NCBI GenBank assembly: GCA_002709645.1
Contig: PAQG01000006.1
Span: forward strand, 37,982-101,981
Direction of reading: 5' to 3'
DNA: 64,000 nucleotides
Source: Acidimicrobiaceae bacterium
Lineage (GTDB): Bacteria > Actinomycetota > Acidimicrobiia > Acidimicrobiales > UBA8592
Shown here: piece after piece, positions 47,742-53,304 of the stretch
Position numbering within the stretch: the first letter of the stretch is position 1
Layout: the number at the start of each line of letters is the position of its first letter
The notes under the pieces: generated by a model
The model's input: the letters and a program-made list of their open reading frames with translations, nothing else
Told to the model about the DNA's origin: nothing
Database searches by the model: none
Translations under genes and position numbers: made by a program

Positions 47742-47847
47742 GTGACAAAAGACACGGCTCTTTCAAGAGCAACGGGTTCCAAATTGAGGCAAACTAGTCT
47801 TAGAGGTTCATCGCGTGATGAATTACCCCCCAAAGCAAGGAAATAAA

Positions 47848-48249
47848 ATGCCTAAGAAATTACCCCACCATCTCCAATATGCTGAGTTCGCTTTCGCTGC
47901 TACAGCTACTTCTGAAGAACTTCGTACTCTCTGTAGATTAACAACAAGAATTGATGTCAAAAAAGGAAGTGTCCTAATGCACCAAGGGGCCTTTGGCAAT
48001 GAAGTTCTACTTTTGGTTCACGGCCAGTTAGTTGTTGAGAAAAATGGCGAATTAATAGCTTCAGTTGCACCTGGTGCAGTTGTCGGAGAAAGGGCCGTCA
48101 TACTAAACGAGCCACGTGATGCCACTGTCCGAGCAGCGTATGATTCGACTATTCTCGCTATGTCTCGAAGCGAATTCAACACTCTTCTAGCTGAGTGTCC
48201 AAGTATTGCCAGAAACATTCTTGAAGAAGCACTTACCCGAGCCGGTTAG
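47848..48249 (+). CDS. Stand-alone cyclic nucleotide-binding domain protein
   Basis: VKKGSVLMHQGAFGNEVLLLVHGQLVVEKNGELIASVAPGAVVGERAVILNEPRDATVRAAYDSTILAMSRSEFNTLL; no HTH downstream. Start MPKKLPHH with AGGAAA upstream (listed 47815). Confidence 0.88.
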   Translation: MPKKLPHHLQYAEFAFAATATSEELRTLCRLTTRIDVKKGSVLMHQGAFGNEVLLLVHGQLVVEKNGELIASVAPGAVVGERAVILNEPRDATVRAAYDSTILAMSRSEFNTLLAECPSIARNILEEALTRAG

Positions 48250-48309: not shown

Positions 48310-49128
48310 ATGGAAAAACTGACAACGATGCTGGTTAGGAAATACAGAATCGTTAAGATTCGGCTTTACATGGGCTCCATAATCCCCATACTGCAACGCT
48401 TTCTCACTAGGATCTATCACAACTTTGTTAACTTCGGTTTAGGTAGGCGGATTAATTTCAGCGCCATACGAAAAGTTAATGTACCAACTATCGGCGGGCG
48501 CATCCTTTTAAATGCAATAGGCGGGGTTTTGATTTCAATTGGAGCGACGATGGTAATCTTGGCCAAGCTAGGGGCCACAACTACTGATGTTCTCCTCACT
48601 GGGATTAAGGAACAAACTGGGATTTCAATTGCTGGGGCATCATTTGGGTTTCTTGCTATTTTATTTGTCATTATGGCTGTAACTCGATCAGAAATTGGTC
48701 TGGGAACTGTAGTTGTGCCACTTTCGGTTTCCACAACATTTACATTTTCCTTTTTGATTATTCCAGAGCCGCATAATTTAAGTGCTCAATTGCTCTACTT
48801 CCCTACTGGGCTTGTGGTTATAGCGACTGGTGTAGGTATAGGAGCTAGCGCTGGGATTGGAATGGGTGCATACGAATCAATATGCCATCGGATATCAGAT
48901 ATTAATGGATGGCATCCGCAACTAGTTCGCCTTTTCTGGGAATTAATTGTTCTTGGGGTCGGAATCTCTCTTGGTGGAGCATTTGGCGTGGGTACCATAA
49001 TCGCAGCTATCGCTACTGGCTGGATATTGCAATATATGAATTCTGTAATCGGGGATTACCTACTTGGGCGTCGTATAAGAACAAATTGCGAACAACCATT
49101 AGCTCAAGGACATACCTATGAACTCTAA
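48310..49128 (+). CDS. YczE/YitT-like integral membrane protein
   Basis: ILLNAIGGVLISIGATMVILAKLGATTTDVLLTGI...GVGIGASAGIGMGAYESICHRISDINGWHPQLVRLFWELIVLGVGISLGGAFGVGTIIAAIATG. Confidence 0.75.
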   Translation: MEKLTTMLVRKYRIVKIRLYMGSIIPILQRFLTRIYHNFVNFGLGRRINFSAIRKVNVPTIGGRILLNAIGGVLISIGATMVILAKLGATTTDVLLTGIKEQTGISIAGASFGFLAILFVIMAVTRSEIGLGTVVVPLSVSTTFTFSFLIIPEPHNLSAQLLYFPTGLVVIATGVGIGASAGIGMGAYESICHRISDINGWHPQLVRLFWELIVLGVGISLGGAFGVGTIIAAIATGWILQYMNSVIGDYLLGRRIRTNCEQPLAQGHTYEL

Positions 49129-51997
49129 TGCAATTGTCAGCATCAATGATCCGGGAGCCGTACCTTACGTTGATGTTTCAGTGAAAAATTTTGGTGAAGT
49201 TTTAGCAACAACCCAAAACATCACTGAACAAGGGTGGGTAGTTATGACTCCAGCAGGTCCCTTAGTTGTTGGTTATAGCCAGATAAAGAGAATTCTCAGA
49301 AACCCCGAATGGATCTCGCTCCTTTCTAGTGTTTCGATGCTTGACCAAATGGAAACAAGCACTACAGATATAAATAAGATTTTAGAACAGGCTCAAAGAG
49401 TAATCCCTGAAATTCCTGCATCTGTCAATTTCAGGCCGAATGTGCTATCTGTCGAAGGTGAAGATCACAAACGTCTTAGGCGACTTGTGAATGCATCATT
49501 TACTACGGGCAATACCTCTAAGTATCGAGAATTTATGCGTTCCCATGCTCGCATGCTTTTATCTAAAGTAAGCGACTCAGGTAAAGGTGAACTCGTTTCC
49601 GAATTCTGTAGACCCTACCCTGTCCCGGTAATCTGCCGTGTCTTAGGCGTTGATGATTCAGACTGGAAATTATTTGACGAGTGGGCTGACATTATTTTTT
49701 CTGCTTTAGATGCTGACGTAGAGTCAGTGATTGGACGGTTAGGAGAAATCTCACGAGCGCAGCAGGAACTTGATTCGTATGTCCAAAAATTAATCGTTGA
49801 CCGTGTTGAGAATCCAGCAGATGATCTATTAACTGAATTAGTAACAAGTCACTACAATCAAGATCGCCTTTCTCATGATGAATTAAGTGCCATGACTGAA
49901 GCAATACTTCTCGCTGGAACAGATACAACGCGGAATCAACTTGGGGCATTGTTAGCTGTGCTAGCTGACCATCCCGAGCAATATCGTGCTTTGCGAAATG
50001 ACCCCTCTTTAGTGCCAGCAGCCGTAGAAGAGTCTCTAAGATATATCAGTGCTGTAAGAACTACAGGCCGACTAGCATCTAAAGATCAAATTCTCGAAGG
50101 AATTCACTTCCCAGCAGGGTCAACTGTATTACTCGGTCTCCATGCTGGTGGATTATCCGAAGCCGCTGACCATGGATTTGAATTCAATATACTCCGAGAG
50201 AGCAACTGCCCTCATTTAGCTTTTGGATCTGGCGCCCATCATTGTTTAGGAGCTTCACTAGCACGAGCAGAACTACAAGAGGCATTAAGTGCATTTGTCG
50301 AAATAGTTCCAGCTTATGAATTAACATCTCCCATCTCTTGGAAACCTTTATCCATGGGAATCTGGGGTCCTTCTAGTCTTGAGGTACGAATAGTTGATGA
50401 AGCACCAAAAAGAGATAATCCTTTCATATCAACAATTAAAGAGGAAATTGAAATACAAGATGAGGAAGAAATCCGCCGCATAGATCAGTGGATTCGCGAA
50501 GCTTCAATCTCAAGAAAAATTCTTAGAAGCTCGATACCTAATCTCATTCGGAAACCAAAATTTCCCCCTATTGGTCGCCTTCTAGTAACTATTTTCAGAT
50601 TTGGGAAAGAGTTTATTACATGGAAAATACTGGACCGCCACAAAGAAGAAAAACAGGCACTGTTATATTCACGATTCCGAAAAGCTGCAGAACTTCAGGG
50701 GCCAACCTATGTAAAATTAGCTCAATTGATTTCCGCCGCTGAAGGGGTATTTCCAGAACCACTTGTCTCAGAATGCAAGAAATGCAGAGATCAAGTTTCG
50801 CCAGAACCCTGGAGCAAAATTGCCAAGGTGTTACATAGCGAACTTGGAAACGAGGAGAAGTCTTTTTCCCATATTTCCGAAAGCCCAATTGCAGCTGCTT
50901 CAATCGCTCAAGTTCACGAGGCTGTTCTTCTAAATGGTTCTCCTGTAGTAATTAAGATTCAAAGACCTGGTATTCGGAGAAAAATAGCAACTGATCTAAA
51001 AGTTATGGCTTGGATCGCCCCAAAGTTAATTGGGAAAATTCCAGTAAGTGCGTTAGCGAATCCTCCCGCACTTGTTGAGCTTTTTGCTGAAACTATTGCG
51101 GAGGAGCTTAATTTCAAACTTGAGGTAGCAAATCTATTTGAAATAGAGAGAGTACTATCAGCAAACCTAAAACACTTATGGGAGATACCTACCCCAGAAC
51201 TTAACTTAGTTACGGAAAGAGTCATTGTGATGAGCAGAATTTCCGGAATTTCTTTAGGAGAGTCAATTTCTAGAGGAGTAAGCCCTAGAAAAACATCAAT
51301 AATATTCCGGCAAATGGTTGAAGGGCTTCTTGAAGGAGCTGTTATCCATGGCGTGTTCCATGGCGATTTCCATGCCGGCAACGTGTTCCTTAATTCTTCT
51401 GACAAAATTGGACTGGTTGATTTTGGTATTACTGGAAGACTTGAGGGAGAAAGACGGTTGGCTTTCCTTCGTTACGTCGTAGGGATCATGACAGGTGACG
51501 TTGAATCTCAAGTGTTAGGAATAAAAGACTTGGGTGCTTTCCCAGAAGATTCAGATATTGGACTAATTATTAACGAATTCCAGCTTGAACGGAATAATTT
51601 TGACCCGTTAGAACTGTCAGAAGATGAATTCATTAATGAGTTTCGAACAATCATCAAAAACCTGTTAGCAGAAGGCGCTCGAATACCGAAAGAGTTGATG
51701 CTCTTTGTGAAAAATTTTGCTTACCTATCATCAGTTATGCAGGAATTAGACCCAGAAATGGATTTGTTATCAGAATTCCTTGAGGTAGCTTCTGGTTTCT
51801 TCGGCAGAAATGGTGTTCGAGTCGCGACTGAAATTGGTTTCTCTTTAAGTGCTGAAGACGTTACTGATATGACATTTAGACGAGTAGCTGGGTTACGAGA
51901 GAATGTTTCCACTCTCACTTGGAAAGAATTAGGAGAGCGAAGGAACTCTCTTCTAGGAAGAATGGACCGAAGGTCCATCAAGAAAATAATTGATTAG
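49118..51997 (+). CDS. Cytochrome P450 fused to ABC1/UbiB (AarF) atypical kinase
   Basis: N-terminal P450: AGTDTTRNQL (I-helix), EESLRY (ExxR), FGSGAHHCLGASLARAEL (heme Cys). C-terminal UbiB: GPTYVKLAQLIS, SPIAAASIAQVHEA, PVVIKIQRPGI, HGDFHAGN, LVDFGITGRL. One uninterrupted 959-codon frame. Confidence 0.93.
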   Translation: MNSNAIVSINDPGAVPYVDVSVKNFGEVLATTQNITEQGWVVMTPAGPLVVGYSQIKRILRNPEWISLLSSVSMLDQMETSTTDINKILEQAQRVIPEIPASVNFRPNVLSVEGEDHKRLRRLVNASFTTGNTSKYREFMRSHARMLLSKVSDSGKGELVSEFCRPYPVPVICRVLGVDDSDWKLFDEWADIIFSALDADVESVIGRLGEISRAQQELDSYVQKLIVDRVENPADDLLTELVTSHYNQDRLSHDELSAMTEAILLAGTDTTRNQLGALLAVLADHPEQYRALRNDPSLVPAAVEESLRYISAVRTTGRLASKDQILEGIHFPAGSTVLLGLHAGGLSEAADHGFEFNILRESNCPHLAFGSGAHHCLGASLARAELQEALSAFVEIVPAYELTSPISWKPLSMGIWGPSSLEVRIVDEAPKRDNPFISTIKEEIEIQDEEEIRRIDQWIREASISRKILRSSIPNLIRKPKFPPIGRLLVTIFRFGKEFITWKILDRHKEEKQALLYSRFRKAAELQGPTYVKLAQLISAAEGVFPEPLVSECKKCRDQVSPEPWSKIAKVLHSELGNEEKSFSHISESPIAAASIAQVHEAVLLNGSPVVIKIQRPGIRRKIATDLKVMAWIAPKLIGKIPVSALANPPALVELFAETIAEELNFKLEVANLFEIERVLSANLKHLWEIPTPELNLVTERVIVMSRISGISLGESISRGVSPRKTSIIFRQMVEGLLEGAVIHGVFHGDFHAGNVFLNSSDKIGLVDFGITGRLEGERRLAFLRYVVGIMTGDVESQVLGIKDLGAFPEDSDIGLIINEFQLERNNFDPLELSEDEFINEFRTIIKNLLAEGARIPKELMLFVKNFAYLSSVMQELDPEMDLLSEFLEVASGFFGRNGVRVATEIGFSLSAEDVTDMTFRRVAGLRENVSTLTWKELGERRNSLLGRMDRRSIKKIID

Positions 51998-52070: not shown

Positions 52071-52448
52071 GTGGATATTTACGAGAAACCTGTTATTCAA
52101 ATTCCTTCAAGTGAACCACCTGAAGAGCTTGTAATTGAAGACCAGGTTGATGGAGAAGGGAACGAGTGCACATCGGGCCAGCTTATCAGCGTGGACTACG
52201 TAGGGACATCATGGTCCAATGGAGTCGAATTTGATTCTTCTTGGTCTAGAGATGAAGTTTTCACCTTTACAGTAGGAATCGGACAAGTTATTGAAGGATG
52301 GGATGAAGGATGTCTAGGAATGCGCGTTGGCGGGAGAAGAATGTTGACTATCCCACCAGATAAAGCGTACGGAGAGCACGGTGCTGGTGGAGTTATTGGT
52401 AGAAATGAAACCCTTGTCTTTGTAGTTGATCTTCGAAGTATTGGTTAG
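52071..52448 (+). CDS. FKBP-type peptidyl-prolyl cis-trans isomerase
   Basis: GQLISVDYVGTSWSNGVEFDSSWSRDEVFTFTVGIGQVIEGWDEGCLGMRVGGRRMLTIPPDKAYGEHGAGGVIGRNETLVFVVDL; GTG start. Confidence 0.95.
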   Translation: MDIYEKPVIQIPSSEPPEELVIEDQVDGEGNECTSGQLISVDYVGTSWSNGVEFDSSWSRDEVFTFTVGIGQVIEGWDEGCLGMRVGGRRMLTIPPDKAYGEHGAGGVIGRNETLVFVVDLRSIG

Positions 52449-52461
52449 TTACGGAGTCTTT

Positions 52462-53304
52462 ATGAACAAAAAACCACTTTTAGGAAAGGTCGCTGTCGTT
52501 ACAGGATCTAGCCGCGGAATAGGAAAAGGAATAGCAGTTGGCTTAGGTGAATTAGGAGCAACTGTTTATATAACTGGTCGATCGTCAGGAACTGGACCAT
52601 TAACAATTGACGCAACTGCTTCGTTAGTTGATGAAGCAGGTGGTAAAGGCGTCCCAGTTGAAATTGACCTTGGGAAGGATGATGAGATACAAGGCTTATT
52701 TGAAAATATACGTAAATCAGAAGGACGTCTTGATATCCACGTGAATAATGCCTTCAAAATCCCTAATCCACCAGTTTGGGGAGGAAAATTCTGGGAACAC
52801 CCAATACAAATTTGGGATGATCAGGTCGGTATCGGACTTCGTTCCGCGTATATAGCAAGTGTCCATGCGGTTAGGTTAATGATGGAACAGGACGATTCCA
52901 TTCGGTTTATGGTCAATATTTCTTCAAGCGGGTCAGAACGTTACGCCTTAAGCGCTAGCTACGGAATTGCTAAAATGGGAACCGATAGATTAACAAGAGA
53001 TTTCGCAATTGAAGGGAAAGAGGACGGATTATGTGTTATTGGACTCTGGCCAAGTCAAGTTCTAACAGAATTTATTGTCGAAAGCATTGAAAAAGGCGAT
53101 ATTGAACTTGACGAAGAGAATTCAGAAACACCTCTTTACACAGGGCGAGTTATTGGCGCACTAGCAATAGACCCAAACAGGTATGAGAAAAATGGGCAGG
53201 TTCTCACGACTGCAGAAGTTGCAGTCCACTACGACATCAGTGATGAACGCGGGAAACAACCTAAAGGAAAACGAAACCCTAAGATGTATCGGGAAACTAT
53301 ATAA
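52462..53304 (+). CDS. SDR family oxidoreductase
   Basis: AVVTGSSRGIGKGIAVGLGELGATVYITGR, DIHVNNAFKIP, YGIAKMGTDRLTRDFAIEGKEDG. Confidence 0.92.
   Translation: MNKKPLLGKVAVVTGSSRGIGKGIAVGLGELGATVYITGRSSGTGPLTIDATASLVDEAGGKGVPVEIDLGKDDEIQGLFENIRKSEGRLDIHVNNAFKIPNPPVWGGKFWEHPIQIWDDQVGIGLRSAYIASVHAVRLMMEQDDSIRFMVNISSSGSERYALSASYGIAKMGTDRLTRDFAIEGKEDGLCVIGLWPSQVLTEFIVESIEKGDIELDEENSETPLYTGRVIGALAIDPNRYEKNGQVLTTAEVAVHYDISDERGKQPKGKRNPKMYRETI

Follow-up and report, generated by a model that had tools for sequence, protein, structure and literature searches.

Does one protein of this locus join a cytochrome P450 to an ABC1/UbiB-type ATPase domain, as an initial annotation had proposed, and what might such a protein do? 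We addressed these questions in a window of 64,000 nucleotides (contig PAQG01000006.1) and in related genomes. The window belongs to a genus of marine Acidimicrobiia whose public genome bins carry the labels Acidimicrobiales, Acidimicrobiaceae or 'Candidatus Microthrix sp.'.

Domain organization of the P450-UbiB protein

The reading frame at 49118-51997 runs on the plus strand from ATG to stop (959 codons) and encodes a protein of 959 residues. Residues 1-425 form a complete P450 and residues 457-959 a complete UbiB/ABC1 domain, with a short variable linker (426-456) between the two. The features are as follows:

49118..50392, plus strand: cytochrome P450 domain, residues 1-425 (PF00067, PDB matches, stand-alone relatives)
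49913..49939, plus strand: P450 I-helix oxygen-activation motif AGTDTTRNQ, residues 266-274 (invariant in 13 aligned copies)
50030..50041, plus strand: P450 ExxR motif, E305-R308 (invariant in 13 copies)
50222..50245, plus strand: P450 heme-binding loop FGSGAHHC, residues 369-376 (cysteine ligand C376 invariant)
50393..50485, plus strand: hypervariable linker, residues 426-456 (low identity, varying length)
50486..51994, plus strand: UbiB/AarF/ABC1 domain, residues 457-959 (PF03109, alignment with stand-alone UbiB)
50714..50725, plus strand: KxGQ-type motif, here KLAQ, residues 533-536 (invariant in the genus)
50891..50902, plus strand: alanine-rich nucleotide loop AAAS, residues 592-595 (ASAS in some copies)
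50954..50956, plus strand: catalytic-type lysine K613 in VIKIQRP (alignment of genus copies)
51359..51382, plus strand: HGDFHAGN catalytic loop, residues 748-755 (invariant in the genus; HGDLHGGN in stand-alone relatives)
51419..51427, plus strand: DFG metal-binding motif, residues 768-770 (alignment of genus copies)

An HMM scan, the check suggested at the outset, confirmed the fusion on a single polypeptide. In Pfam, p450 (PF00067) matched residues 108-394 (E 2.3e-23; 83.1 bits against a cut-off of 22.8) and ABC1 (PF03109) matched residues 556-796 (E 6.9e-48; 163.3 bits against a cut-off of 22.9). Solved P450s in the PDB align from residue ~105 to ~425, and stand-alone P450 relatives cover residues 15-425 at about 40-46% identity. 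The corresponding alignment of the UbiB half, to stand-alone UbiB proteins of Acidimicrobiia, runs from residue 457 to near the C-terminus at about 36-46% identity, and the solved structures nearest to this half are ABC1-family chains. Both domains are complete, including the UbiB domain, which had been described as near-complete. Pfam matches were confined to p450 and the kinase-like ABC1, Pkinase and RIO models. With no flavin or iron-sulphur reductase domain in the fusion, its P450 is not of the self-sufficient type (CYP102/CYP116B). Hydropathy analysis revealed no convincing membrane helix in the protein. Full-length AlphaFold modelling with seven close sequences reached a mean pLDDT of 37.5, too poor to define a domain interface.

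The P450 and UbiB motifs quoted in the initial annotation are all present, and across 13 aligned copies they are invariant or nearly so, the heme loop reading FGSGxHHC. Judged by its heme cysteine loop, ExxR and the I-helix acid-alcohol pair (AGTDTT), the N-terminal half is predicted to be a member of the cytochrome P450 superfamily; the I-helix motif AGTDTTRNQ is also found in the stand-alone P450 relatives. The C-terminal half is likewise assigned to the UbiB/ABC1 family by an ABC1 match over the cut-off together with the Lys, HxD and DFG motifs. Its ExD motif reads ELN in the window's species and ELD in nearly all others. The KxGQ position reads KLAQ in every fusion copy; we rejected KLAQ (for KLGQ) as a hallmark of the fusion because some stand-alone UbiB relatives share it. 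The TIGR01982 UbiB model spans residues 510-885 with a score of 235.8 against an equivalog cut-off of 487.55, so that the fused UbiB counts as a member of the family rather than as its ubiquinone equivalog. The fusion also scored below the cut-off of the MABP-1 family model NF050082 (89.1 against 800). An internal start giving a free UbiB protein was considered and rejected: the window copy has no start codon between the end of the P450 and KLAQ, and no internal start codon common to the genus copies was found.

Conservation and loss of the gene within the genus

The fusion is present in 14 of the 18 genomes of the genus. Twelve separately assembled genomes, each a species, carry the unbroken reading frame, and an assembly chimera, the artefact against which the initial annotation had cautioned, is therefore excluded. 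Two further copies are broken by assembly only, one by a run of N (G008) and one by a contig end (G014). The genus copies share 68-82% protein identity with the window copy. The linker varies in length and has a mean identity of 23%, compared to 62-85% in the flanking domain regions. Purifying selection acts on both halves: in the pairs that were not saturated, to which all these figures refer, dN/dS was 0.03-0.09 for the P450, 0.03-0.15 for UbiB and 0.14-0.57 for the linker.

In the window's own species, the fused gene was the only full member of the ABC1 family to be found; the one other hit was a weak partial kinase match. A second copy of the whole locus in the same genome bin (L030, G000:C27) was rejected as a paralogue. 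Its DNA is 96.3% identical to that of a different species in the genus, so that it most likely represents contamination of the metagenome bin. Note that the window's genome (G000) contains about 22 P450 genes in 1.83 Mb, many for such a small genome.

The genes around the fusion are:

47815..48249, plus strand: small cyclic-nucleotide-binding domain protein, conserved neighbour (PF00027; genus synteny)
48310..49128, plus strand: multi-pass membrane protein, upstream (YczE-like by eye, without Pfam match)
52071..52448, plus strand: FKBP-type prolyl isomerase, conserved neighbour downstream (PF00254; genus synteny)
52426..53304, plus strand: short-chain dehydrogenase (SDR), conserved neighbour downstream (PF00106; genus synteny)

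The membrane-protein frame overlaps the start of the fusion by 11 nt. Its gene occurs in only part of the genus, with presence and absence independent of the fusion, and the FKBP gene is variably present as well. We dropped the attempt to infer a pathway from the neighbours, which are general lipid/acyl-CoA and housekeeping genes.

The gene is absent from a close sister genome (G015; 94% identity in the neighbouring thioesterase). Here mutB, mutA and the cNMP, membrane-protein, FKBP, SDR, thioesterase, hydrolase and WhiB genes follow in order, with no runs of N and without the fusion. The alignment blocks stop at window position 49121 and restart at 51958, with about 10 nt between them. In a second genome (G004) both the fusion and the FKBP gene are missing. 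Two others (G011, G016) lack the neighbours as well as the fusion and are uninformative on gene loss. Two species therefore have a locus that is collinear except for the missing gene, which indicates that gain or loss involves the gene in its entirety. The fusion gene is dispensable in the genus.

Distribution and ancestry of the two halves

The search for this architecture across genomes, also proposed initially, found the fusion confined to the genus, with no instance outside it when 396 class genomes and 398 phylum genomes were screened. Orthologous UbiB occurs in about 142 genomes of the class, every one unfused. In trees, the fused UbiB falls in one clade with stand-alone UbiB of the class (100/100) and does not group with the sampled mycobacterial UbiB lineages. 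The fused P450 shares a subfamily with stand-alone P450s that bear the signature GTDTTRNQL (100/100). Both halves sit on long stems, suggesting that the fusion may be old within the lineage.

Were the two families linked before they were joined? The P450 subfamily and UbiB co-occur in 36 of 41 genomes, a figure to which we give no weight because an unrelated control P450 co-occurs with UbiB in 32 of 37; co-occurrence was dropped as a sign of a link before fusion. The stand-alone P450 relatives adjoin genes for alanine dehydrogenase, Lrp and an LLM oxidoreductase, without a UbiB link in most genomes. Among about 47 stand-alone loci in the sister (parent) group of the fused UbiB, none had an adjoining P450.

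Separate UbiB-P450 gene pairs elsewhere

UbiB and P450 genes are paired as separate genes in other actinobacteria. A plasmid search identified a pair on the Mycobacterium marinum plasmid pMMRN (L167:11668-14323), in which UbiB overlaps P450 by 14 nt and a divergent TetR gene adjoins. The operon, with TetR, UbiB and P450 as its conserved core, is conserved across about 18 species of Mycobacterium and is also found on one plasmid (loci L167, L186-L205). The UbiB-P450 operons of mycobacteria are translationally coupled, many with overlaps of 10-14 nt, and in some two or three tandem UbiB genes precede the P450.

Among about 31 other loci of UbiB paralogues in Acidimicrobiia, three have a co-directional P450 neighbour. 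One is a TetR-UbiB-P450 arrangement with one 4-nt overlap and one 18-nt gap (G022). In the second (G032; L169:1230-4698), a 747-residue UbiB with a hydrophobic C-terminal region overlaps the downstream P450 by 17 nt. In the third (G165; L254:9937-12616), a P450 of the fusion's own subfamily is followed by UbiB at a distance of about 260 nt, in the same order as in the fusion. This pair lies in a cluster resembling lipid catabolism, with thiolase, MaoC, acyl-CoA dehydrogenase, thioesterase and TetR genes. Additional copies of UbiB (L255, L130), of which one is a fragment, are located within about 40 kb in the same genome. By a rough reckoning, the Acidimicrobiia pairs (3 in 60-80 loci) are only in mild excess over chance. 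In contrast, the mycobacterial operon is a strong case for UbiB-P450 pairing. The recurrence of separate pairs strengthens the case for a functional link between UbiB and P450.

Possible function of the fusion protein

The reading we favour, at a probability of about 0.5, is a bifunctional lipid oxygenase in which the UbiB ATPase would lift a hydrophobic substrate from the membrane and offer it to the P450 on the same chain. The observations behind it are the single polypeptide, the intact conserved active sites, loss as one unit, the variable tether and independent pairing elsewhere. Counting against it are the sister UbiB group, in which no locus adjoins a P450, and the dispensability of the gene. 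The UbiB domain would bind ATP and spend it to pull a poorly soluble isoprenoid-like or other lipid from the membrane, as proposed for UbiB/COQ8 proteins. The P450 would oxidise the lipid as it is presented; we infer ATP-driven presentation, a lipid substrate and hydroxylation as the probable reaction. Electrons would reach the P450 from a separate ferredoxin, since the fusion has no reductase domain. Joining the domains would hold presenter and oxygenase close together and in fixed proportion.

Work on each family provides precedents. According to one proposal, COQ8 uses its ATPase activity to pull CoQ precursors out of the membrane and make them available to other enzymes (PMC8346625). UbiB/COQ8 is required for ubiquinone synthesis, analogues of CoQ intermediates stimulate its ATPase, Coq8 associates physically with the hydroxylase Coq6, and trans kinase activity is unproven (PMC7263595). 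In M. tuberculosis, the hydroxylation of menaquinone MK-9(DH2) has been ascribed to CYP128A1 (PMC6469627). The membrane-lipid or quinone-like substrate suggested in the initial annotation fits this literature. A broader and more tentative extension is that UbiB ATPases may be general substrate-presenting partners of oxygenases, with P450-UbiB modules recurrently serving the oxidation of membrane-held lipids in actinobacteria; the fusion might then be the physical form of such a partnership.

The main rival to presentation of a membrane lipid is xenobiotic oxidation, in which the UbiB domain would bind a bulky hydrophobic xenobiotic or natural product that the P450 oxidises, for detoxification or resistance. 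The dispensability of the gene is in keeping with such a role, as is the divergent TetR regulator that adjoins the mycobacterial UbiB-P450 operons, an arrangement characteristic of ligand-inducible responses. Of the solved structures, the closest in sequence is PDB 5yjz, an ATP-binding protein of the ABC1 family, and there is a precedent in MABP-1, a protein without transmembrane parts that binds erythromycin and confers resistance dependent on its ATPase activity (PMC6208485). However, no TetR-type regulator adjoins the fusion, the MABP-1 family model scores it at 89, below the cut-off of 800, and the fused UbiB clusters with stand-alone Acidimicrobiia UbiB and not with the sampled mycobacterial lineages. 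We consider this role rather unlikely.

Less probable still is a specific form of the favoured lipid oxygenase, in which the fusion makes a hydroxylated menaquinone or related prenylquinone, as the menaquinone counterpart of the UbiB-assisted hydroxylations in ubiquinone synthesis. The need for UbiB/COQ8 in that pathway (PMC7263595) and the MK-9(DH2) hydroxylation assigned to CYP128A1 (PMC6469627) point this way. Against it, there is no quinone gene near the fusion, and about 60% of the sampled class genomes have no match of the strength of this UbiB orthologue, which is therefore not part of core quinone synthesis. Finally, a tolerated chance joining of two domains that each act alone in unrelated roles accords with a parent UbiB lineage devoid of UbiB-P450 operons and with the P450 neighbourhoods described above, but has the slimmest prospect, given that both halves are intact and constrained at protein identities down to 68%, are lost together, and belong to families whose pairing arises repeatedly and independently.

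Comparison with known systems

Mutations in human UbiB/COQ8 members cause disease. The biochemical job of these proteins is still called mysterious (PMC7263595), and the fusion hints that they hand greasy substrates to oxygenases. Together with the mycobacterial operons, it offers a defined, soluble-looking system for testing whether an ATPase presents a lipid to a hydroxylase. The fusion apparently represents a new architecture made up of domains from two known families, and extends the range of known P450 fusions to a partner that is not a redox domain. Our search of the open literature for UbiB/ABC1/AarF with cytochrome P450, with subscription papers and preprints outside its scope, yielded no account of either the fusion or the TetR-UbiB-P450 operon, in agreement with the initial annotation, to which no described P450-UbiB fusion was known.

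Compared to the UbiB/COQ8/ABC1 ATPases (PF03109), the fusion has the same complete ABC1 domain with K, HGD and DFG motifs and alanine-rich loop, and an N-terminal extension in which the KxGQ-type motif reads KLAQ. It differs in its N-terminal P450, in having no convincing membrane helices and in scoring below the UbiB equivalog cut-off. The closest orthologues of its UbiB half are the stand-alone Acidimicrobiia UbiB proteins (about 530-600 residues, often encoded beside nucS), which, unlike the fusion, are unfused and without a P450 neighbour. MABP-1 (Rv3197/MSMEG_1954) is an actinobacterial ABC1-family ATPase that binds a hydrophobic macrolide and has no P450 (PMC6208485). The P450 half shares its I-helix and a similar C-terminal WKP..GI.GP signature with the 'AGTDTTRNQL' class I P450s of Acidimicrobiia, but has diverged from the stand-alone forms in the K'-helix/meander region. 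CYP102 and CYP116B likewise join a P450 to another domain; their partner is a reductase, whereas that of the fusion is an ATPase. The TetR-UbiB-P450 operon of Mycobacterium (e.g. on pMMRN) also pairs UbiB with a P450, but as separate proteins, in reverse gene order and from other subfamilies (28-29% identity, separate clades).
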